From assembly GCA_033065855.1 (NCBI GenBank), contig JAVXUO010000938.1, positions 1 to 64,000 of the forward strand: DNA of 64,000 nucleotides, read 5' to 3'. A program made the translations under genes and the position numbers. The stretch is from Escallonia rubra. Taxonomy: Eukaryota > Streptophyta > Magnoliopsida > Escalloniales > Escalloniaceae. This document shows positions 1 through 56,945 of the stretch, piece after piece. The notes below the pieces were generated by a model. The model was given only the letters and a program-made list of their open reading frames with translations. It made no database searches and was not told the DNA's origin. Position 1 is the first letter of the stretch, and every line of letters starts with the position of its first letter.

Positions 1-502
1 TTGCCCATCCCCTTACTTTCAGCACAATTTTCTTCTACTCAATTCTTTCAGCACAATTTTCTTCTCCTTCAGACTCGCTTCCATTTTCAGCTGCCTTCAA
101 GCTTCGAGTAACACTTGCTTCAAGCTTCGCTCAAGCAAGGTAAGTTTGCTTCAAGTTTTCTTGATGTTCTAGAAATTTGTCACTGTATTCATCAATTTGT
201 GATTTTATACTCTAGATTTTTTGTGATGTTCTAGACATGATGTTCATCAAAAAGGTATAATTTGTTAACTTTATATTTAATTCATTATAGTTTAATTCGA
301 TTTTTTGGCATGATGAATTCGTCTATTTATCTTACTAATTTAAATTTGTTATGTTCAATAAATTAGTAATTGTTAATTTGGAGACACTTTTGAGATTATG
401 CATACCGTATGTTTGCCATCCTAATTTTTAGGTAATATTTTCAGTTAGAAATGCCATTTGATTGTTAAGCGTAGTCTATTTCTACACAGCTCTTGTTTCA
501 CA

Positions 503-2798
503 ATGTCTGATTTCGTGTCGAGCTCCAACGTCCCCGTAGATGCTAGTGATCCGTATCTAGGACGAACATTTGCTACGTTGGAAGAAGCTGAAGAATGTTT
601 TCGAGCGTATTCATTGAGGGTTGGTTTTGGCATTAGAATAAAGACTTCAAGAACGAGCACCATAACGAGAAAGATATGCTCTCGCTTATACGAGTGCCAT
701 AGGAGCAGAAACCCAGTGCAAAATGAGACACGTGTAGGCAATGATGACAGTGAGGACGAAATAGGATATCCGCGTAGAAGACGGGACTGCTTTGAGCGCA
801 CAAATTGCCAGGTCAAGATGTTCGTAAGCTACAAACCCAAACAAGACCATTGGCTTATTACCAGCCTGGAACTGGCACACAATCACCCGTTAGTAACCCC
901 TTCTAAGGTGAGTGATGCATCAACACAAGAAGATGGGTAAGGTCGCAAGGAGCCTGATTCAGACAATGAGCAATGCGCGACTAGGACCTACCGACATGAT
1001 TAATGTTCTTGCTGAACAGGCTGGGGGAATTCAAAATTTGACCTTTAACACGACAGACGTTCGTAACGCGGTCCGAACCCATAGACGAGCCGCGTATGAC
1101 CTCAATGATGCTCAAGCCACAATGAGCCTATTGAAACGGATGCAGATGGAGGACCCGCAGTTGACCTTCGATTATAAACTTGACGACGAGCATCGAGTTA
1201 GCACAATTTTTTGGGTCGACGGTCGTTCGAGGCTTGCTTATAAGCATTTTGGGGATGTCGTGACGTTCGACACCACATACCGTACCAACAAGTACTCGAT
1301 GCCGTTCGCCCCTTTCACGGGGGTCAATCATCATTATCACTCCATCCTGTTCGGGTTCGCCTTGTTAAGGGACGAGACCGAGAGTTCTTTTGAATGGTTG
1401 TTTAGGACGTGGCTGGAAGCAATGAACTTCAAAGCACCCAAAGTGATCATCACCGATCAAGATTTGGCAATGAAGAAGGCTATTGCGACCGTCTTCCCAG
1501 ACACTCGGCACAACTTGTGCACCTGGCACATAAGCAACAAATACCCGGAACGGCTGCATCACGTGTACGCAAAGTATCAAGACTTTAAACAGGATTTTGA
1601 CAAGTGCGTCCTCAAGTCGTTAACGATTGAGGAATTCGAGGAGAGGTGGGAAAAGCTTGTTCGGGATTACTCATTGCAAGACAACGAGTGGCTCCAGCAC
1701 TTGTACGAGCGCAAAGAGCAATGGATTGGCGTTTACACGAGGAGGTATTTTTCAGCGGGCATGAAAACGACGGGCAGGAGTGAATCCATGAATGCCACGT
1801 TCGATAGTTATGTGGGTACAGCTACCAATTTGAAGACTTTCGTTGCATCCGCACAAAAAGCGGTAGCTTCGTTGTTCGTAAAAGAAAGGGCTGCCGACTT
1901 TGCAACAACGTACAAACAAAGGAGAACGTTGCTCGAGACCCCGCTGGAGATGAACGGTGCCAAAGTCTATACGAAGGAGATCTTCTTGCTATACCAAGTA
2001 GAGCTGCGAAAATCCGGACGATACAGTATAAACAAGGTGGCAGAAATGTCTACGCGTGAGTACAAGGTTTATTCGCTCGTGAATGACCTAGTCCCTGAGA
2101 AGCTGCGCAGAATGTATACGGTGAGCCACGACACATTGACGGACTCGGTGACATGTGTTTGCAAGAAGTTTGAGTTCCATGGCATCCTGTGTAGACACGT
2201 TCTGCGGTTTTTCACCCAGAAGAATATCAGGACAATCCCCGATAAATACGTCTTGCCACGGTGGACAAAAGGTGCAAACAGGTTGCACGGTACCATTTCC
2301 TTTCCGGAGCACCCGTATACTGACTTTGAAGAATCAGAGACGTTGCGGTATAATCATCTGGTGACGATGTTCACCCGTTTGTCCGTAAAAGGTGCTGCTA
2401 CAATGGTCGGTTATAAACATCTCCTCGAGGTAGCTCAGCAACAAGAGCCCATCGTCGACCAGTTGGAAGCAGCTTCAGTCACCAATGCGATTGACACCGA
2501 GCCTACGACGGGGGTATCAGAAGATGACGAGCCGGAGGAGGAAGACGACAATGATATCCGTTTGTTGGATCCAATTATATCGCAAACGAAAGGCCGCAAG
2601 AGATCTACGCGGATGAAAAGCTCTATTGAAACGGCAACTCAACCTAAAAAGCTGCGAAGGTGTGCATTGTGCAACAAAATGACCGACCACGACAAGCGGA
2701 ACCATTACAAGGCACTGGGGATAAGTTCAAGGGGTTTGCAAGACGGGGAAGAAGGTGACGCCGAAGATGAGGACGAACAAGCTGCAGTGGACCTTTAA
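503..2798 (+). CDS. FAR1/FHY3-like MULE transposase, split by a one-base frameshift
   Basis: Likely cuts and moves the element. The first part (503-about 910) encodes a FAR1 DNA-binding domain: FATLEEAEECFRAYSLRVGF, then a Cys/Cys...HNHPL zinc-binding pattern. The second part (ATG at 915, to 2798) encodes the RNase H-like MULE domain with VVTFDTTY and ITDQDLAM supplying the acidic residues, CTWHISNKYPERL, then a SWIM zinc finger (CVCKKFEFHGILCRHVL) and a basic, Cys-containing tail. ATG 503 fits the family N-terminus. The two frames meet near 910-915: the HNHPLVTPSK stretch is in one frame and the following conserved KMGKVARSLIQTMSNARLGP in another. An intron would have to be 55 bp or delete conserved sequence, so a one-base indel is likelier. 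A 5'UTR intron is possible (GT at 140, AG at 444). Domesticated FAR1 genes are related, but the linked transposon features favour an element gene. Confidence 0.85.
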
Positions 2799-2948
2799 TT
2801 TTTTGTACAACTTTATGACATTTGTAATAATATTCGAGGGATAATTTTTCGACCGGGTACTGGAATTTTTTTAAAATGGACCTATGAGAGGCCATCGAAT
2901 CAAATCTAAAGTCTTTATTACGAGATTTTTTTTTATTTTGTAATCCCC

Positions 2949-3178
2949 GTCCGCTATACAATGTAGCGGACATCATTGACTTTGGTCTTTTACGTCCGCT
3001 ATATTGTATAGCGGAGGGGTGGCATCGAAGTAAAACTTTTGGTCTTTGTACGTCCGCTATACAATGTAGCGGACGTTAGAGCAGGCAAACTTTTGGTCTT
3101 CTTTAATGTCCGCTATATAATATAGCGGACGTCATAACTTTTGGTCTTCTTTTATGTCCGCTATACAATGTAGCGGAT
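2949..3178. repeat. Palindrome cluster 1: five GTCCGC-N11-GCGGAC sites
   Basis: Five 23-bp inverted repeats start at 2949, 2993, 3052, 3108 and 3156, just after the transposase stop codon. Outer half-sites are GTCCGC and GCGGAC. Centres vary (TATACAATGTA, TATATTGTATA, TATATAATATA), and 3108-3130 is palindromic over 10-bp arms. The copies at 2993 and 3156 have one changed terminal base. The phrase CTTTTGGTCTT recurs between copies. Every half-site contains a CpG. Function unknown; transposase, B3 or FAR1 binding is inference. Confidence 0.9.
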
Positions 3179-3344
3179 AAGTCTATATGATATATATTAA
3201 TCATATCGGGCAATCGGCTGTTATCAGTCCAATCTGATAACAGTCTCTCTGTCTGGAACATCTAGCCCAGGCCCTCCATCTCCGGCGACCCACAGGTGAT
3301 CCACAACTCCGGCGATAAACCGTCCCCCCTCAACGCCGACCTCG

Positions 3345-3808
3345 ATGGCTTCTGGATCGGAGACCACCTACGATTTTATTGGCAACTTGCACCTGGCAGG
3401 CAAACACTTTTTCAAAGTCATGATGCCGGGGTTTGAGAATGAACTTGTACGCCATCCCTCTATCTCTGTATTTTCGTGTGTTAAATCTTTTGGTTAAAAA
3501 CTAACCTATTTTTTGTGTATTGTGTTTGTTAGGACATACCGGAAGCCTTCACCAATCAATTTACAACAATTCATGACAGTGCAAGATTATATAGCCGCAA
3601 GGGGGCATGGCAGGTTGAAATCAAGCTGAAGCCCGGCCGACCCCAAAAAAAGCAATTCGCAGAGGGTTGGAACGTCTTCGTGCGCCAGCATGGCCTCGAA
3701 CTCGGGGACTTTGTAGTGTTTGAACACCTTGGGTGGTGGGATTTTGAAGTTGTAATCTTTGATCGGAGCACTTGTGAAAAAATTTCTTTCCCCCAATGTG
3801 AACCCTAA
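3345..3808 (+). CDS. Small B3 DNA-binding-domain protein (REM-like), two exons
   Basis: Exon 1 is 3345-3446 (34 codons from ATG) and exon 2 is 3533-3808 (91 codons plus stop). The 86-bp intron has GT at 3447 and AG at 3531-3532, joining in phase 0 to give 125 aa. The product is almost entirely one B3 domain: GKHFFKVMMPGFENEL, then DIPEAFTNQF, a central AWQVEIK strand, GWNVFVRQHGLELGDFVVF, and FEVVIFDRSTCEK at the end. This matches the usual order of a REM-type B3 fold. B3 domains are plant-specific sequence-specific DNA binders, so a nuclear role is expected. It lies between the transposase and the Ulp1 gene, directly between two clusters of inverted-repeat sites, and shares the transposase orientation. 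No frameshift or stop is seen. It could be a captured host gene or an element regulator. Confidence 0.85.
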
Positions 3809-3881
3809 TTTATGATTAATAAAATAATTTGAGTTCTTGTTGATTGTGTTTCGAAATTTTTCCTCGCTTAATTGTGTCGTT

Positions 3882-3977
3882 TGAAATAGCCTCGATATAT
3901 TGAGATACCCTCGATAGTGAATGGTAGGTTGAAATAGCCTCGATATATTGAGATACACTCGATAGTGAATGGTAGGT
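3882..3977. repeat. 48-bp tandem duplication
   Basis: Two nearly identical 48-bp units start at 3882 and 3930, each beginning TTGAAATAGCCTCGATATAT. They sit between the B3 gene and the second palindrome cluster. Confidence 0.85.
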
Positions 3978-3995
3978 TAATTGCAGGGATTTTAC

Positions 3996-4706
3996 GTCCG
4001 CGATACAATGTAGCGGACGGCGCAGCAGAAACTTTTGGTATCAACACTTAGAAAAATTTGGTCTTCATTTTACGTCCGCGATACAATATAGCGGACGGCG
4101 CAGCAGAAACTTTTGGTCTTCATTTTACGTCCGCGATACAATGTAGCGGACGGCGCAGCAGAAACTTTTGGTATCAACACTTAGAAAAATTTGGTCTTCA
4201 TTTGACGTCCGCGATACAATGTAGCGGACGGCGCAGCAGAAACTTTTGGTCTTCATTTTACGTCCGCGATACAATGTAGCGGACGGCGCAGCAGAAACTT
4301 TTGGTCTTCATTTTACGTCCGCGATACAATGTAGCGGACGGCGCAGCAGAAACTTTTGGTATCAACACTTAGAAAAATTTGGTCTTCATTTTACGTCCGC
4401 GATACAATATAGCGGACGGCGCAGCAGAAACTTTTGGTCTTCATTTTACGTCCGCGATACAATGTAGCGGACGGCGCAGCAGAAACTTTTGGTATCAACA
4501 CTTGGAAAAACTTGGGCTTCATTTGACGTCCGCGATACAATGTAGCGGACGGCGCAGCAGAAACTTTTGGTATCAACACTTAGAAAAATTTGGTCTTCAT
4601 TTTACGTCCGCGATACAATGTAGCGGACGGCGCAGCAGAAACTTTTGGTATCAACACTTAGAAAAATTTGGTCTTCATTTTACGTCCGCGATACAATGTA
4701 GCGGAC
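3996..4706. repeat. Palindrome cluster 2: eleven sites in a 55/78-bp tandem array
   Basis: Eleven GTCCGC-N11-GCGGAC copies start at 3996, 4074, 4129, 4207, 4262, 4317, 4395, 4450, 4528, 4606 and 4684. Spacings are only 78 or 55 bp; the longer unit carries an extra 23-bp module starting TATCAACACTTAG. The left half-site is followed by GATACAA instead of the TATACAA of cluster 1. Each copy is followed by GGCGCAGCAGAAACTTTTGG. Peptides read through this stretch are repeat artefacts. Confidence 0.95.
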
Positions 4707-4906
4707 GGCGCAGCAGAGAAACTTCCAAAATTTTTGCACCATTTCGTTTTCCACATTTCAATCATTCCCAATGAGGCCAAAAAACCAACAACGTTCATCA
4801 GAAAAATAACACAAATCAAATCACACCAACGACAACAGAAATCAACACAAATCAAATCACACCAATGGCGTACGGTTTATGTAAAAAATACTGTTATGAT
4901 ACAATT

Positions 4907-7900
4907 TCAATTGGTGGCCGCATGTTGGGCCGGATTCTCGTCATTAGCCGGATTTTCTATAAACCTAACCGCTCTAGGCCGGCCTTTCATAATTTGCCAA
5001 GCCATTCTATATCTATAGCCTTCAACTTCTACTTGGCTCCAGACGGCCGCCTTGAGGCTCTCAGAGCGACAAATGAAATCCATGTACATGCAAAGGAAGA
5101 CGCCGCAGTCCGAAGTGTTACGTTGCTTGGGCCTCCTCTTCTTCAATCGCCTATTGAGATTTGGCCGCGCCGGTACGGGGACATCACGGACACGATTGAC
5201 CATTGCACAAAAAATATTCTGCGAGAAACAGAAAATGGCGTAAGACACGAGTTAAAATTTATGGCAAGATAGAATCAGAGAATTATACAGCGATCGTAAT
5301 ATTACCAACGCGTCCAATTGGGCTTTGTACATGTGCAGCACAGGCATCTGATGAGTATCGTCGTGGAGACTGTCGATCACCGATACGACTTTAGTTGTTG
5401 GGGAGTAGCAAACCAAGTACCAGTGGCTGTGCCCTAGAAATGGGATTAGAAACACATCGGCAACACTTGCGCTCACCGGACTATCCCTATTAAGATACGC
5501 TCGTAGGTTAAAGGACGGGCTCCACTGGGCCAACTTTTTCTTCCCCCTATTTTCGACCCACTCATGCCATTCAGACACTAGCATCTGATGAAAAAAGGCA
5601 TCGAACAGAAAAACGGCCGGATAGCTCGGCTGCTGCCGACACCTTTCCCTCAGAATCTCCACGTAGGTGGAGACGACACCGGTGTCTAACCAACTCCCCG
5701 GAGCCAGCGAGGCCAGTTCTCCCCACGAGCAACTGTAATCCATGCCCTCCGGATGATCCACACTATACAACGCTTGGTCATGCGGGACGCCGCTAAAATA
5801 ACGCTCTCTGATTATCTGGCATTTCTGCGGCTTTAGGGGCTTCAACGGATGCCCTTTGCGATATTGCCCTCGGGGGTCGACCAGGGGGTATTGCACTCCT
5901 TCGGGGGGGTCGACGGGGGGATATTGCACTCCTTCGGGGGGGTCGACGGGGGGATATTGCACTCCTTCAGGGGGGTCAACGGGGGGGGGGGGGTATTGCC
6001 CGCCTTCGGCAATAGATGGTCCTGCCCACGGGACAATGGGCAGACTGATGTTTCCGAAAATCCAGTCTTGCGTGACTTGACTCTGGGAGAGGGGTTGGGA
6101 TTCCGAATCCAATCGTAAAGAGAAGGAGGGCGCACTGTAATAATCCCACGGCGCTTGAGCCTGGCCCATGGTGCTTGGCGGTCCCCAATCACCAGCCATC
6201 TCTGGTACAGAGGGAAAACCATATCCCTGGCTCACTCCCGAAGTCTGTCCCGAGGGATCGGTGCATCCCTCGGGAACAAACGGCCGCTGCCACCCCGGAT
6301 AACCCATTCCCGGGTTTGGCTGTCCCGATGCTTGCCGCAAAAAATTCCCGCAGCCAACCGCCAACGCTTCAGCCTGTTGGCGAAGCTCCTCGCCCATGGC
6401 ATCCACCAAATCCTTCCGCTCGCTCAACTTCTGGAAGAAGGCGAACGAGGCATTAACCTACATCCAGAGAGATAATAAATAAGTAACTTCGTACACACTT
6501 AGAATGATCAAGTTCAATTAGAAGCACTGGTTGGGCAACTTACCAGATTGTATGCCATGTGCTCATCGATCTGACCCCTAGGGTGGTACTTCTCCCCGCG
6601 TTCAAACCTTACTGGAGCTACTCTCCTCCGGGTGATGCGGTAGTACCACTCGTTGTACTGTTCGATACTGATGACGGGGTCAGGCTCCGACACAATGGCC
6701 GCCGGCGTGTCCTGCCAAGAATTCCAGACCTCAATTTCACGCGTGCACAACTCGTGCGCATTCGCCCTGCCAAACAGTCCGACACCCGGTGGGTTCCTGT
6801 TAAGCCTCATATCTGGCGCGCCGGCTGGCAACCCCTGCAGGCAGTCAAAATGGCGCATAGCGCGATCCGGCAGCTGCCACTCTGCGACCTCGAAGTGGAT
6901 CAGGGGTGTGCGTTGCAACCCGGAGAGCGTGAAGACGAACGACTCTCCCACCCGTCGCGCCAAACGTTTGTACGGTGCCCATCGCATCTGGCCAGGAGAT
7001 AACGAGTCGAGCTCCCCCCGATAGTATGAAATGTTGTGATGGGGATCGTCTCTCCTCTCGTAGTGGGTTTCCTTCCGGCTGTACTCCCAGGCGCACAACC
7101 GAGGCCACACATTATCTGTTCCGTCCCTACGCCTGGGTGCGCCGGTAGCAAGGTGTTCATAAGACCACACCTGAGAGCAAAGACATTAAAAAAACTATCG
7201 TCAACATTTATTGTCCATTCAACAAAAAAATAATAATTACAGAGAGCACGTAATGAAGAATTGTATGATATACCTGCAATAGCGAGAGACATGCACATAT
7301 CGCTTTGGAGTCGGGCCTCGTTGCCTTGTGCAATGCTCGGTACAGGTATGCAAGAGTTGCTGCACCCCAGGCATAATCCCCAACCTCAGCCAGGTTACGC
7401 AAAAACGGTATATATTTGACGCTGACCGTGTTCTTCGACGTCGTTGGGAATAATATTGCCCCCATCACCCACAAGAGGAAGGCTTGTGTGTACAGCACAA
7501 GGTCATGGCCCGTATAGTTTTCCGGCAAAACCCCGTAGGTATCTACCAACCACTTCAACTTGATACCACCACTGCTAAATCCATCCTGGGGTACCGAAGT
7601 AAAGAAGTCCCTAGCGGTCCTCTTATTCGTTGCTTCGGACGGATGAGCTATTACCGGCCGCCCCGTCACCGGTAACCCTAAGATGAACCCTACATCTTCT
7701 AGGGTAATTGTCATCTCTCCGAGAGGGAAGTGAAACGTATTCGTTTCACTTCTCCACCTTCAACAAGGGCACCTATTAAGTGCCGGTCAAGTTGTTGAAA
7801 GATCTGCCCATGCGTGAAAATCCCAAACCCAATCCCACGCAGTAATCTTTTCTGGGTTCTGTTCAATTTCCAGGCGTTGAAATTATCGCTTACTTCTACC

Positions 7901-8110
7901 GTGTTGACAAGTGCTCTTTCCTACGAATTAATAAATATTATTTAAGCAAAATAAACACTATACAACGTACACAACTAAAAAACGTAAGCAAAATAAACGA
8001 TATAAACGATAAAATAAGTATCTTACTCCACCATCCCATATGAGCGTACTGATATGGGATGCTTGGTCGTATAATACGGACGAATCTTCTGGTCCAGGGT
8101 TGAAATCCAT
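4907..8110 (-). CDS. Plant mobile domain - Ulp1 (C48) protease fusion, five exons, one frameshift
   Basis: Exons (minus): 8110-8027, 7920-7274, 7170-6544, 6457-5306, 5218-4907. All junctions are phase 0 with GT/AG ends; about 940 aa if one missing base in exon 2 is allowed for. Exons 1-3 encode a plant mobile domain (PF10536-like): GPEDSSVLY, then ALVE, TFHFPLGEMTITLEDVGFIL and LLQVWSYEHLATG. Exon 4 has a proline-rich linker with 11-residue repeats. Exons 4-5 encode a Ulp1/SENP-type cysteine protease with the full set of expected residues: His about 798 (SHWYLV), Asp about 815 (VIDSL), Gln about 869 (PKQRNTSDCG) and Cys about 875. Such proteases remove SUMO or related modifiers; the substrate here is unknown. 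One base is missing near 7755-7762 between ALVE and RW, ending the frame soon after; downstream use of the Met at 7714 is possible. Confidence 0.85.
5870..5998 (-). repeat. In-frame 33-bp coding repeat in the PMD-Ulp1 linker
   Basis: About four units of 33 bp encode the 11-residue repeat VDPPEGVQYPP in the linker between the mobile domain and the protease. Because the unit is a multiple of three, copy-number change keeps the frame. A run of G at about 5984-5995 at one end is a likely slippage site. Confidence 0.85.
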
Positions 8111-8407
8111 TTTTTGCAACTGAAATAATGGAAAGAGGGCAAGGTTGGAAGCGTAAACATTCCCAAACATACAACGCTAGCATATTCAGCGCTAGCATGT
8201 GATCAGATAATACGCAATACACATATATAATATATATGTATATACATTGACAAACGCTAGCATAGTGCCTATCTACTTGCCAACGCCGCAAGATGAACTC
8301 TAGATTATGAACAAAGTAAGGATTAGTTTGTGAACTTACGTGATTGATGAGACGATTAAATGATTTCTTGCAAAGAAATTGCGCCGATCTACTTGCCAAC
8401 GCCGCTG

Positions 8408-8479
8408 GTTTGATCGTGAGAAGAAGGAATAGTTTGATTGTGAGAAGAAGGAATAGTTTGATTGTGAGAAGAAGGAATG
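8408..8479. repeat. 24-bp tandem repeat, three units
   Basis: Three head-to-tail 24-bp units begin at 8408, 8432 and 8456, each GTTTGATYGTGAGAAGAAGG followed by AAT. The array is in the upstream region of the PMD-Ulp1 gene. Confidence 0.85.
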
Positions 8480-8514
8480 AATAGAAGTTTAGAAGGATTC
8501 GAATGCTTGCCAAC

Positions 8515-8747
8515 GTCCGCTACACTGTGTTGCGGACGCTGGGATAACGACAAAGTAACAGACGTGCATCGACTGATGTGACAACTGTCAGGGGGAAGTG
8601 GGTGGTTTGACGGAAACAGTCGTCCGCTAGACAGTGTAGCGGACTACTTTTTGTTGGCCCAAGAATGTCGTCCGCTAGACTGTGTAGCGGACGGGGGAGC
8701 GAGGGCAAGATGGTAAAAAGATCCGTCCGCGAGACTGTGTAGCGAAC
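8515..8747. repeat. Palindrome cluster 3: four subterminal sites
   Basis: Four copies start at 8515, 8622, 8670 and 8725, about 115-350 bp from the right end. Their centres differ from clusters 1 and 2 (TAGACAGTGTA, TAGACTGTGTA, GAGACTGTGTA), but the GTCCGC...GCGGAC frame and the 23-bp length are kept. The last copy has GCGAAC on the right. Being both upstream of the minus-strand gene and next to the terminus, they could serve transcription or transposition. Confidence 0.9.
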
Positions 8748-8772
8748 GACTGACAGCGCCGCAAAAAAAAGT

Positions 8773-8812
8773 GATCTGGACCGTCCATCCCTTCGGGATG
8801 GACGGCCAGATC
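8773..8812. other. 40-bp near-perfect hairpin close to the MULE right end
   Basis: Arms are GATCTGG-a-CCGTCCATCCC and GGGATGGACGG-CCAGATC around a TTC loop. There is one unpaired A and no other mismatch across 18 bp of stem. It is 50 bp inside the proposed terminus. Confidence 0.9.
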
Positions 8813-8862
8813 GCGCTGGCAAGATATCCTATTTTGCCTACGCTGTCAAGGGATCAGCTCCC

Positions 8863-8871
8863 ATATATATA

Positions 8872-8916
<45 letters not shown>

Positions 8917-36639: not shown

Positions 36640-37146
36640 TCACAAGTGACAATCAACCATGGCTGCAACTTTCCCGGGCTGAAACTCCAAGCCATTCTCA
36701 AAAGGGGTCAAGTTCAAATCCAGGCACAAAACCCTCCTACAGCTATTGGATTTCTTCACGAGAGGGAAGACTTGTTTGGTAGGCAAAGGCGTAGAAGGCT
36801 GGTTGATCTCGTCCGAGCCGGCTCTGTGGCGTCTCATGTGACCTCCCAACGCTTGCCCTATCGCAAACTCTAGCCCACAGATGGAGCACTCGTGCGTCTT
36901 CGGTTTAGCCGGCTGCGAGCAGCTGTTCAGATGCAAGTCCTCTCCCATCAGCCTCGGCTTCTTGTGACTCGCCCGGTGGCCACCGAGAGCTTGGAACGAC
37001 GGGAACTGCCGGTTACACGTCTTGCACTCGAAGACACGACTCGGAATGCTGCTTGCGGCATCGTACTGGCCTCCCCGAGAGAGCGTCATCAAGCAGTTCG
37101 CCATGGCTGTTAAGCTATCAGCCTCTCCATCTCTGCCTCTCTTCAT
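36640..37146 (-). CDS. C2H2 zinc-finger repressor, ZAT11/12-like (copy A)
   Basis: Intronless, 168 aa from ATG 37146 (MKRGRDG); an in-frame ATG five codons upstream (37161) is less like the family. Two plant-type zinc fingers at residues 41-61 (CKTCNRQFPSFQALGGHRASH) and 87-107, both with QALGGH, are followed by an EAR repression motif, LDLNL, at 142-146. This is the C1-2i class of stress-response repressors, nuclear and expected to recruit TOPLESS-type corepressors. The C-terminus (GKVAAMVDCHL) agrees with the usual ending of ZAT11-type proteins, in contrast to copy B at 56323. A TATA-like site and two TTGACT boxes lie 130-180 bp upstream. Confidence 0.92.
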   Translation of the reverse strand: MKRGRDGEADSLTAMANCLMTLSRGGQYDAASSIPSRVFECKTCNRQFPSFQALGGHRASHKKPRLMGEDLHLNSCSQPAKPKTHECSICGLEFAIGQALGGHMRRHRAGSDEINQPSTPLPTKQVFPLVKKSNSCRRVLCLDLNLTPFENGLEFQPGKVAAMVDCHL

Positions 37147-37272
37147 GCCCAAAAACACCATGACAAGATCAAATTATAAGTAAAAAACTAGGGTTTTAGT
37201 TCGCTCTTTGGGATGTTTCAGCGTGAATAAAAGTTAGGTTTTGTTTGAATGTTGAAGGAGATGGGATATCCT

Positions 37273-45935: not shown

Positions 45936-46451
45936 AACTTTAAAAGAAAAAATACGTCACTAATTTATTTTCTCTCTCCTGACCTATATATTTTCTTCCC
46001 CTTCTTTCTCTAAAGGGTAGAATGAGAAACACATAAAATATGACCAATATCCTCAATCTTTGTGAACAAAAAAATATAAAGTGATCGAATTATGTGGGGT
46101 GGAGGGAGTGGTTTATAGCAACGTGCCACCTTGGATGGTGTTCCATTCCATATGGTGCACCGATTCTTGTATACAGAAGTAACTCTTTCAACAAATTATT
46201 GGGTGCATTTTCAAAGGTTGCTGAAACTTTTTACACGTTAGGTTTGTATGATTGGACATGATACAAATCTATATCTATATCTATATTGGATCGTGATCCA
46301 TTTCTAGCGCTAGCAGGTCCGCTATATAATGTAGCGGACGTAAATTATCGTCCGCTATATTATATAGCGGACGGCAAAACAGCGCTAACAATTCTGCTAG
46401 CGCTAGCAACGGATCAGCTCCCATCTATATTTATCTATACTTTAAATAAAG
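45582..46451. repeat. Local duplication, copy 1 (contains the small MULE)
   Basis: From TGATGTTCATTACTCTGGAC onward this matches 46954-47669 closely, except for the 135-bp insertion at 46288-46422 plus its target copy. It includes LINE-derived DNA and a flank with CCTTGGATGGTGTTCCATTC. Confidence 0.9.
46288..46422. mobile_element. 135-bp non-autonomous MULE related to the 1-8862 element
   Basis: The left end GGATCGTGATCCATTTCTAG and the reversed right end GGGAGCTGATCCGTTGCTAG continue into GCGCTAGCAG on both sides (23 of 29 bases match). Inside are two GTCCGC-N11-GCGGAC palindromes, 46317-46339 and 46350-46372. A perfect 9-bp ATCTATATT flanks both sides (46279-46287 and 46423-46431). The unoccupied paralogous site is at 47641-47649. 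The last 12 bases equal those at 8851-8862, tying it to the large element. Confidence 0.92.
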
Positions 46452-52600: not shown

Positions 52601-53524
52601 TGAATTTGTTACATCGAACTTATCAGCTGTTGCCGAGGAAAGATGGTTCGCATGCCACGTGAGGTGCCACAAAGGATGCAGTCTGCGTTGGCTTCCAAGT
52701 AGACAAAGTGGGAGACAGCAAGGATGGAGTAAGGGCTGAGAGCAAGGCTCCCCAGACAGGCCGCGAGGGCTGACAGTGCCGCGCAGGCAGGGTGACGACG
52801 AACAGGGCTAGCGGTCGACAGTCCGTGTCAAGGGTGCAGCGTCAAGAGTCCGATGTCAGGGGTCCAAATGTGTTTCTCTCACTAGAACTCCAGAGAGAAT
52901 GGATTTTAGAGAGAGAAAGTGAAATGTGGAAATGAGGGAGAAGTCCCTGAATAAGCTCCAGAATCCACTATATATAGGCACAAATATGCGCGTGTCATCA
53001 GCCGACACGTGTCGTCCTCTGGGAGTGACATGTCGCCGTAGGGGGTCTCGCAGTCTTGATTGTCCGTCGAATTGCCGGTCCCCGAGTTCGTGCCGCCCTG
53101 CCCTTACAGCGTCCCTCTGCCTGTCTGAGGAGACTGACCACACTGCGGTAGCATAGTCAGAGTAGCCCGTTGCCCCAGCCTCCAGTCCAAGCCCTTACTG
53201 AATCCCACGAGATGCGTCAAGAGACGCGCGGAGATCCTGACAGCGACGAGGGTTGCCCCTGCAGCCAACTGCCAGGCGGACTAGGCGCGATGCCCTCCGA
53301 GGACCTGCTCCCGTCCCGGAGTGACCCGGGGGTCATTGCCTTGGCGGTGCCGATGATCAATGATAACATGAGCGCACATGCTCACAGCTTGATACTCAGA
53401 GTCCGTGGCGAGGGGTCCTCGTGCCGGAGCACTACGAGCGGAGCCCCCCGTGAGTCCGTCGGGTGATTGTGCCGGCGATGGCCTTAGGGTTGTAAGCCCA
53501 TCCTTGTTACGAAGGCCGGAGCCT

Positions 53525-54000
53525 CCAGTTGATTGTGCTGGCGAGGGCCGGAGCTCGTCGGTTGATTGTGCTGGCGAGGGCCGGAGCCCCGTCAGTTTGA
53601 TTGAGCCGGCGAGGGCTTCATGGTTGCGAGCCCGCGAGGGCCGGAGCCCGTCGGTTGATTGTGCTGGCGGGGGCCGGAGCTCCCGGTTGATTGTGCTGGC
53701 GAGGGCCGGAGCCCCCGGTTGATTGTGCTGGCGAGGGCCGGAGCCCCCGGTTGATTGTGCCTGCGAGGGCCGGAGCCCGTCGGTTGATTGTGCTGGCGAG
53801 GGCCGGAGCCCCCGGTTGATTGTGCCTGCGAGGGCCGGAGCCCGTCGGTTTGATTGAGCCGGCGAGGGCTTCATGGTTGCGAGCCCGTCCCACCGCGAGG
53901 GCCGGAGCCCCGTCAGTTGATTGTGCCGGCGAGGGCTTCATGGTTGCGAGCCCGTCCCGCCGCGAGGGCCGGAGCCCCGTCACTTTGATTGAGTCGGCGA
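53525..54000. repeat. Minisatellite, about 30-bp units
   Basis: More than ten units of TTGATTGTGCTGGCGAGGGC plus CGGAGCCCC; variants include TTGATTGAGCCGGCGAGGGC followed by TTCATGGTTGCGAGCCCG. Very GC-rich. Confidence 0.9.
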
Positions 54001-54094
54001 CAGAGCGTCGCGCTACTGAAGATAGCGGGTGAGTGTTGTTGGAGCGAGAAGTCAGTGCCGCTCGGCAAGTTCCCCCCTTCGCAGGGCAATGGAG

Positions 54095-54226
54095 GCCGAC
54101 CCCCTCCTTAGGGGGGTGGCCGACCCCCTTACAAAGTGGGTGGCCGACCCCCTTCTTAGGGGGGTGGCCGACCCCCTTACAAAGTGGGTGGCCGACCCCC
54201 TTCTTAGGGGGGTGGCCGACCCCTCG
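54095..54226. repeat. Minisatellite built on GGGTGGCCGACCCCCTT
   Basis: About five units alternate between endings ACAAAGTG and CTTAGGGG. Each unit holds the palindrome-like GGGTGGCCGACCC, so hairpins are possible. Confidence 0.9.
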
Positions 54227-56322: not shown

Positions 56323-56820
56323 TCATCCCAAAACAACGCCGAGCTGAAACTCCAAGCCATTCTCCAAAGGGGTCAAGTTCAAATCCAAGCACAAAACCCT
56401 CCTAAAGCTATTGGATTTCTTCACGAGAGGGAAGACTTGTTTGGTAGGCAAAGGCGTAGAAGGCTGGCTGATCTCATCCGACCCGGCTCTGTGGCGCCTC
56501 ATGTGACCTCCCAATGCTTGCCCTATCGCAAACTCTAGCCCGCAAATGGAGCACTCGTGCGTCTTCGGTTTAGCCGGCTGCGAGCAGCTGTTCAGATGCA
56601 AGTCCTCTCCCATCAGCCTCGGCTTCTTGTGACTCGCCCGGTGACCACCGAGCGCTTGGAACGACGGGAACTGCCGGTTGCATGTCTTGCACTCGAAGAG
56701 GCGCCTGGGAAAGTTGGTCATGGCGGCATCATACTCGCCTCCCCGAGAGAGCGTCATCAAGCAGTTCCCCATGGCTGTTATGCTATCAGCAGCCTCTCCA
56801 CCATCTCTGCCTCTCTTCAT
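56323..56820 (-). CDS. C2H2 zinc-finger repressor, ZAT11/12-like (copy B)
   Basis: Intronless, 165 aa from ATG 56820 (MKRGRDGG). It is nearly identical to copy A through both QALGGH zinc fingers and the LDLNL repression motif, with differences mainly in the N-terminal region (NFPRRLFE against SIPSRVFE). The last residues differ abruptly: FQLGVVLG then stop, in place of FQPGKVAAMVDCHL. The change coincides with the left edge of the duplicated segment, so this copy probably acquired a new 3' end at the duplication breakpoint. Fingers and EAR motif are intact, so repressor activity is likely kept. TATA and TTGACT boxes are preserved upstream. Expression may differ because the 3' UTR is new. Confidence 0.92.
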   Translation of the reverse strand: MKRGRDGGEAADSITAMGNCLMTLSRGGEYDAAMTNFPRRLFECKTCNRQFPSFQALGGHRASHKKPRLMGEDLHLNSCSQPAKPKTHECSICGLEFAIGQALGGHMRRHRAGSDEISQPSTPLPTKQVFPLVKKSNSFRRVLCLDLNLTPLENGLEFQLGVVLG

Positions 56821-56945
56821 GCCCAAAAACACCATGTGAAGATCAAATTCTAAGGAAAAACTAGGGTCTTAGCTCGCTCTTTGGGATGCTTTAGTGTGCA
56901 GAAAAGTGGGCTTTTGTTTGAATGTTGAAGGAAATGGGAGATCAT

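Follow-up and report, generated by a model that had tools for sequence, protein, structure and literature searches.

The first 8,862 positions of one contig of Escallonia rubra, a South American shrub, raise two questions: whether a single Mutator-like element (MULE) carries a B3 DNA-binding protein and a PMD-Ulp1 protease in addition to its transposase, and whether these accessory proteins may act on the short palindromes distributed along the element. The window analyzed here is a stretch of 64,000 nucleotides at the start of contig JAVXUO010000938.1 (assembly GCA_033065855.1, forward strand), and both questions stem from a sequence-only reading of it, which suggested that the B3 protein and/or the protease regulate or de-silence the family through the palindromes. 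Our analysis identifies, with near certainty, a young, high-copy MULE of the terminal inverted repeat (TIR) type, which has a FAR1-SWIM transposase, normally carries three genes and resides in TA repeats. The structure of the element is settled, and the mechanism that we propose for its accessory genes is tentative.

One element in many copies

Window bases 1-8862 (plus strand) belong to one TIR-type MULE that starts approximately 330 bp to the left of window base 1, beyond the contig start, so that its left terminus was taken from other copies. The right end was placed at 8862 because the final 32 bases match the end of a small relative at 46288-46422 with a score of 32, whereas 90-bp windows of the same 64-kb window reached a maximum of 23 on one strand and 24 on both strands (0 of 2000 in each control); the right terminus that had been proposed from this relative and its 9-bp duplication is thus well founded. 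Genome searches covered an assembly of 566,129,122 bases in 3222 contigs, in which the stretch 8600-8880 matched at least 40 places over at least 270 bases at 97-100% identity, window included, a lower bound given that 40 of 1981 first-look candidates were scored. Among the other 39 places, 20 were fetched with up to 10 kb each, and the transposase, B3, PMD and Ulp1 segments were all present and collinear in 18 of these 20 copies, in agreement with the earlier claim that three gene types, two on the plus strand and one convergent, reside in a single element.

Both ends were visible in 13 of the 20 fetched copies, the remaining seven showing no left terminus within the fetched stretch. The matching left terminus that was to be sought beyond the contig start was found in other copies: its sequence, GGGAGCTGATCC, is the exact inverse of the right terminus, with one mismatch in copy L016, and it lies 288-352 bp (mostly 329-337 bp) to the left of window base 1. 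The inverted repeats span approximately 245 bp in L021, the sole copy in which they were aligned and from which the coordinates of the right repeat (8618-8862) were transferred. Two-ended copies are 8.3-9.6 kb long, save for L019, an internal deletion derivative of 3.3 kb, and another copy (L020) carries an insertion of approximately 1.2 kb in the transposase. Since the complete gene set lies between matching termini in 11 of these 13 copies, the transposase and PMD-Ulp1 genes do not belong to two adjacent elements with their own ends.

All 13 two-ended copies are flanked by TA-rich repeats and the 9-bp flanks are identical in 12 of them, which is weak evidence of target-site duplication because the flanks are nearly all TA repeats. 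The 9-bp target-site duplication typical of MULEs was observed at the small relative, and the large copy of the window is without its left end. This relative, a 135-bp miniature inverted-repeat transposable element (MITE), shares the terminus, carries two palindromes and lies between exact duplications of ATCTATATT (46279-46287 and 46423-46431), a sequence less simple than the TA-repeat flanks of the large copies. In the assembly, the MITE scored at 40 or more places with 97-100% identity (1062 first-look candidates, 40 scored). The 20 MITEs that were fetched carry no genes and all keep the two palindromes, and exact 9-bp flanks, mostly TA repeats, were found in 15 of them. Given that TA repeats surround the 13 two-ended copies and the majority of the MITEs (loci L053-L072), the family seems to target such repeats.

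The median pairwise synonymous divergence (dS) of the transposase was 0.0025 among copies of the window's subfamily. The CpG observed/expected ratio was 1.06 in the element compared to 0.67 for the remaining window sequence, and ranged from 1.04 to 1.10 in 14 complete copies. A scan of the window against Rfam gave nothing at gathering scores.

The three genes

The FAR1-MULE-SWIM transposase (503-2798, plus strand) was recognized by its FAR1 (E=1.4e-14), MULE (PF10551, E=2.6e-33) and SWIM (E=4.3e-05) domains, with an N-terminal FAR1 and a C-terminal SWIM domain as in the Jittery/FAR1 group. Residues D120, D182 and E291, which we take to be the catalytic DDE residues, are shared with 60, 59 and 57 of 61 aligned sequences (window included), and the residues to which we ascribe zinc binding are also kept. 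The reading frame is broken in the window copy, whose start region is 2 nt short relative to all 20 fetched copies, and open in 17 of the 23 copies tested; a frameshift as a family trait was rejected, as it is private to the window copy among those fetched. In a tree of 60 protein matches, the transposase fell within a 28-member clade rich in Daucus and Apium proteins.

The B3 gene (plus strand) comprises exon 1 (3345-3446), a GT...AG intron (3447-3532) and exon 2 with the stop codon (3533-3808), and encodes an intact single-domain protein of 125 amino acids, which, once spliced, matches the B3 domain (PF02362) above the cut-off (E=1.5e-10). We presume it to be of the REM type; its best sequence match in the PDB was VRN1, at E=0.01 only. 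The protein collection held one relative at E<=1, from E. herrerae, with 99 of 108 aligned residues identical and a 17-residue stretch absent from the annotated protein. Querying the E. rubra genome with B3 yielded 239 matches and 150 listed places (2129 first-look candidates, 150 scored), and 61 of the 150 were identical over exon 2. These listed places rule out a one-off insertion of B3 in the window copy and, within this genome, the concern raised earlier that the gene might exist only here. By a hand count that short insertions or deletions (indels) would escape, the matched stretch contained a stop at 13 of the 150 listed places and none at 137. Four listed places that were fetched with a wide flank all had relatives of the transposase and PMD-Ulp1 genes as well as palindromes. 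Moreover, B3 was intact in the window and in 18/18 B3-bearing copies of the first sample, was present in each subfamily sampled, and kept its GT and AG splice sites in all 24 further copies, which came mostly from the more diverged listed places. Around the B3 cassette, the search for a scar returned only one 11-bp inverted match and four shared 8-mers (shuffled mean 0.71, maximum 5).

The PMD-Ulp1 gene lies on the minus strand, convergent with the transposase and B3 genes, and has five coding exons: the first (8027-8110), read identically in E. rubra protein P0122; the second (7274-7920), with a frame break at 7759/7760 in the window copy; the third (6544-7170), in which the PMD ends; the fourth (5306-6457), with a variable repeat-bearing linker followed by the His and Asp of Ulp1; and the last (4907-5218), with the Gln and Cys. 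The spliced protein matched PMD (E=3.7e-73) and Peptidase_C48 (E=8.2e-14). The second exon measures 647 nt in the window, one less than the 648 nt seen in 19 of 21 further copies, and its frame, broken in the window, is open in 18/21 copies. The His-Asp-Gln-Cys set, which we assume to be catalytic, aligns with that of SENP2 and is kept in four copies (L018, L030, L031 and L032). Among 23 copies (window included), the linker is between 644 and 804 bp long, and judged by length the window's frame is kept in 15 of them; a poly-G run in this linker may add assembly error. Only two proteins, both from E. rubra, were found at E<=1e-5 with the PMD-Ulp1 protein, one match reaching 96% identity over 54% of the query. 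DUF1985, the VANC domain, remained below the cut-off (E 0.015-0.24) and was not listed for the spliced window protein, and the predicted structure of the PMD protein (P0123) was unusable, with a mean pLDDT of 31.

Comparison with an older copy, L032, gave nonsynonymous/synonymous divergences (dN/dS) of 0.049/0.153 for the transposase, 0.018/0.044 for B3, 0.091/0.366 for PMD and 0.268/0.519 for Ulp1, so that dN is lowest in B3, and Ulp1 is the fastest-changing part; the PMD-Ulp1 protein of L032 matches that of the window at 58-63% over most of its length. The unequal dS among genes suggests an exchange of segments. With L032 as the outgroup (L020 omitted from the transposase, L029 from PMD, and L019 and L024, which have no B3, from B3), purifying selection on the split to L032 was evident for the transposase (39 nonsynonymous, N, and 30 synonymous, S, changes; p=0.005) and for PMD (50 N, 48 S; p=2e-6). 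In a midpoint-rooted variant, the transposase showed 30 N and 14 S on inner branches (p=0.35) and 33 N and 30 S on terminal branches (p=8e-4).

Palindromes and the possible roles of B3 and PMD-Ulp1

The palindrome, GTCCGC-N11-GCGGAC, forms three clusters in the window element: five sites at 2949-3178, between the transposase and B3; eleven sites spaced 55 or 78 bp at 3996-4706; and four sites at 8515-8747 in the right terminal region. Allowing up to three mismatches, 22 sites were found in the 64-kb window, all of them within the element or its small relative, compared to a mean of 0.00 in 100 shuffles, and the palindromes are thus shared as first described. The spacer was 11 in all 22 window sites (spacers 5-19 tried, one mismatch allowed). 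Of 607 near-matches from the window element plus 24 loci, 601 likewise had a spacer of 11 and the remaining six one of 15. Each terminal region holds four sites in 15/15 two-ended sequences. In the 12 sequences with all landmarks, the stretch between transposase and B3 holds five sites (four in L030) and that separating B3 from PMD-Ulp1 holds 5-18; L019 has only its 4+4 terminal sites and none internal. All counted sites fall in the termini or in these two intergenic stretches in 13 of the 15 two-ended sequences; in the other two, L024 and L031, a missing landmark prevented the assignment of some internal palindromes.

On visual inspection, the two clusters that flank B3 (1 and 2) have one tandem unit in common, and the terminal and MITE palindromes have the palindrome alone in common and not its flank. 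Variable columns in the termini numbered 8/96 in the arms, 24/88 in the spacers and 74/521 in the flanks. The arms are less variable than the spacer (p=8e-4) and not provably steadier than their surroundings. The array of L032 combines a different spacer core with the same arms. A search of viral contigs for the palindrome gave 0 matches, which is uninformative for a plant element.

A second carrier of B3 appeared unexpectedly. Among the 150 places listed when the genome was searched with the Pfam B3 model, 27 look alike by hand count (231 bp, model positions 17-100, frame 88, 49.2-49.9 bits), and the three that were fetched (L073, L074 and L075) each lie within a CACTA-like element. L073 and L075 end in CACTACAAGAAAA...TTTCTTGTAGTG with 3-bp duplications (AAA and TGG), whereas L074 has both end regions in common with them and an altered left end; the middle parts differ between copies. 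The B3 protein of L073 is 54.5% identical to that of the window over 88 residues and its gene has an intron at the corresponding place; omega for this pair of B3 genes is 0.66. The L073 element (60-4300) also has subterminal AGCGACGG/CCGTCGCT repeats. No MULE transposase was found in L073, and one of its open reading frames (ORFs) may resemble a succinate dehydrogenase fragment. A further repeated B3 class in the genome listing, whose frame of 88 aa ends in TAG, is perhaps a third mobile B3 family.

We propose that the transposase would move the element by cut and paste, and that the palindromes would be binding sites of a dimeric DNA-binding protein encoded by the element, for which B3 is the leading candidate. 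Binding at the termini and internal arrays would keep the promoters and ends of the element accessible, and PMD-Ulp1 would be a fast-evolving chromatin or SUMO-removing effector against silencing, like VANC in the VANDAL elements. Architecture and mechanism together make this the best explanation that we can offer, a possible one that falls short of probable; the mechanism part, B3-bound palindromes with PMD-Ulp1 as an anti-silencing effector, is more tentative still. The de-silencing role first suggested for B3 and/or the protease fits the anatomy, in that non-coding motif arrays, array turnover and a fast-changing accessory protein also occur with VANC, according to the available excerpts of that work (PMC5735166). 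In favor of the proposal as a whole stand the joint presence of the three genes, the nearly invariant spacer, the confinement of the counted sites to termini and intergenic stretches, arms that are steadier than the spacer and unchanged in L032, the low dN of B3, the Ulp1 residues that persist in L032, purifying selection on transposase and PMD, the palindromes retained by the MITEs and the high CpG ratio. A bolder version appears rather doubtful, namely that B3 dimers would have been recruited as the family's own regulator on terminal and expandable internal palindromes, where PMD-Ulp1 would strip silencing. In this version B3 capture would be a repeated strategy, because a relative of this gene also occurs in a CACTA-like family of E. 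rubra, which has subterminal repeats of its own.

Several observations weigh against the proposed mechanism. The terminal regions hold four palindromes each, which might be bound there by the transposase itself. The arms of these palindromes do not differ significantly from the flank (p=0.14), and variation in the spacer exceeds that of the flank (p=0.004), so that the contrast between arms and spacer is partly due to a variable spacer. For B3, purifying selection was not significant, with 3 N and 2 S changes on the L032 split and 14 N and 7 S along the inner branches, and ten of the 24 mostly diverged B3 copies are broken (five with a stop, six with an exon indel). Besides, L024 keeps both ends and lacks the B3 cassette (window positions 3178-3988, flanked by clusters 1 and 2), which recombination between repeats might have removed, and no GTCCGC palindrome was found in L073 despite its B3 gene. 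As for the protease, constraint on the last Ulp1 exon was not significant (53 N and 20 S on the L032 split, 9 N and 0 S along the inner branches), L029 has a Tyr in place of the catalytic His, and 8 of 23 copies depart from the window's frame owing to the length of their linker. The high CpG content of the element may simply mirror its youth.

Other readings were considered, and the confidences attached to them are not mutually exclusive. The palindromes may be sites bound by the FAR1 zinc finger of the transposase for transposition, the internal arrays being spare or titrating and B3 and PMD-Ulp1 unrelated to them. The constancy of four sites per terminal region in all 15 two-ended sequences, the two sites kept by all 20 gene-free MITEs and the retention of just the terminal sites in the deletion derivative L019 agree with this reading. 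However, internal sites are at least as numerous as terminal ones in the 12 copies counted (4-5 before B3, 5-18 after) and transposition should not need them, which leaves it somewhat unlikely.

To a similar degree, we find it unlikely on balance that B3 is a mere passenger, in other words a REM-type gene captured from the host and multiplied along with the element. A ratio of nonsynonymous to synonymous changes indistinguishable from neutral, the ten broken copies, the absence of the cassette from L024 and the presence of another B3 in CACTA-like elements are consistent with this possibility, and gene capture by MULEs is well known (PMC13317346). Such a role is harder to reconcile with a gene that is intact in all 18 B3-bearing copies of the first sample, free of stops in the matched stretch at 137 of the 150 listed places (subject to the limits of the hand count), furnished with conserved splice sites in 24/24 copies, present in every sampled subfamily and matched in E. 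herrerae, with 99 of 108 aligned residues identical.

It is less likely that PMD-Ulp1 is itself a sequence-specific anti-silencer acting on the palindromes, as a VANC analogue, with B3 regulating only its own or host promoters. The conserved PMD, the variable repeat-bearing linker (644-804 bp, 23 copies) and the variable arrays follow the VANC pattern as far as it is described in the excerpts available (PMC5735166), and Ulp1 is the fastest-changing part; against this, the motif arms are constant in L032 even though its PMD-Ulp1 matches only 58-63% over most of its length, and DUF1985 is merely hinted at below the cut-off (E 0.015-0.24). Finally, two adjacent or nested elements in place of one can be dismissed as refuted by the copies, since the three genes are collinear in 18/20 of them and nothing was found in favor, the highest score of any terminus-like stretch inside the element (11.2 at 7854) lying above the 99.99th background percentile (8.1), below the background maximum (12.8) and inside the PMD-Ulp1 gene.

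If B3 does bind the palindromes, a host transcription factor would have been turned into transposon machinery, perhaps twice in one genome. With many near-identical copies, a fixed motif geometry, variable arrays, a copy devoid of B3 and miniatures, the family constitutes a natural dose series for the roles of B3 and PMD-Ulp1, and the element is a good place for testing how transposons switch themselves on. Elsewhere in the window, two closely similar C2H2 zinc-finger genes lie approximately 20 kb apart (36643-37173 and 56326-56868), and GC-rich tandem repeat arrays with periods of 32, 65, 67 and 24 bp occupy 53510-54223.

Comparison with known systems

To our knowledge, what is known in detail about transposon-encoded anti-silencing in plants comes mainly from the VANDAL elements. 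In the open-access literature searched, which does not amount to a full literature search, no MULE or CACTA element with a B3 gene was found. A B3 domain in a plant transposable element has been described for consensus sequences of Aegilops tauschii, although these are long terminal repeat retrotransposons of one species and no motif array is described in the accessible part of that report (PMC9289625).

Among the closest known systems are Jittery-like MULEs of melon and grapevine, in which a ULP coding sequence lies downstream of a Jittery-like transposase (PMC2528002); the portion of that description available includes no B3 gene or palindrome arrays, whereas the Escallonia element has a PMD-Ulp1 fusion and a B3 gene. 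The Jittery group of dicots and monocots is tabulated, in the part of the survey available, with one ORF, a target-site duplication that is either 8 bp long or left unspecified, and no PMD (PMC6446971), in contrast to the three genes found here. According to the same part, a PMD gene antisense to or convergent with the transposase is common in other MULE groups (MUDR, MDR and MUDRAVI2), as in our element (PMC6446971), and the excerpts available of another study suggest that the capture of PMD by MULEs may serve anti-silencing (PMC5418596). Abermu MULEs of grasses and a dicot include a three-ORF type in which one ORF runs opposite to the other two, with a 9-bp target-site duplication and TIRs of 138-145 bp, but they are nearer to MuDR, their ORF2 is of unclear function and no B3 appears in the available part of the description (PMC9168764).

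The VANDAL/VANC and KIU elements of Arabidopsis offer another parallel. VANDALs have degenerate TIRs, unlike the Escallonia element with its TIRs of approximately 245 bp, palindromic motif, B3 gene and FAR1 transposase, in which neither degenerate or absent TIRs nor a DUF1985-type VANC protein above the cut-off was found. What is shared, within the portions of the sources available, are MULE accessory genes, repeated short non-coding motifs that grow and shrink, and an accessory protein with conserved and variable parts, with Ulp1 in some cases (PMC5735166, PMC10398659, PMC13317346). VANC proteins in particular are described in these excerpts as combining conserved domains with variable regions that bear arrayed peptide motifs, and their targets as expanding and contracting as tandem repeats (PMC5735166); motif arrays of variable copy number in non-coding regions are likewise a feature of the Escallonia family.

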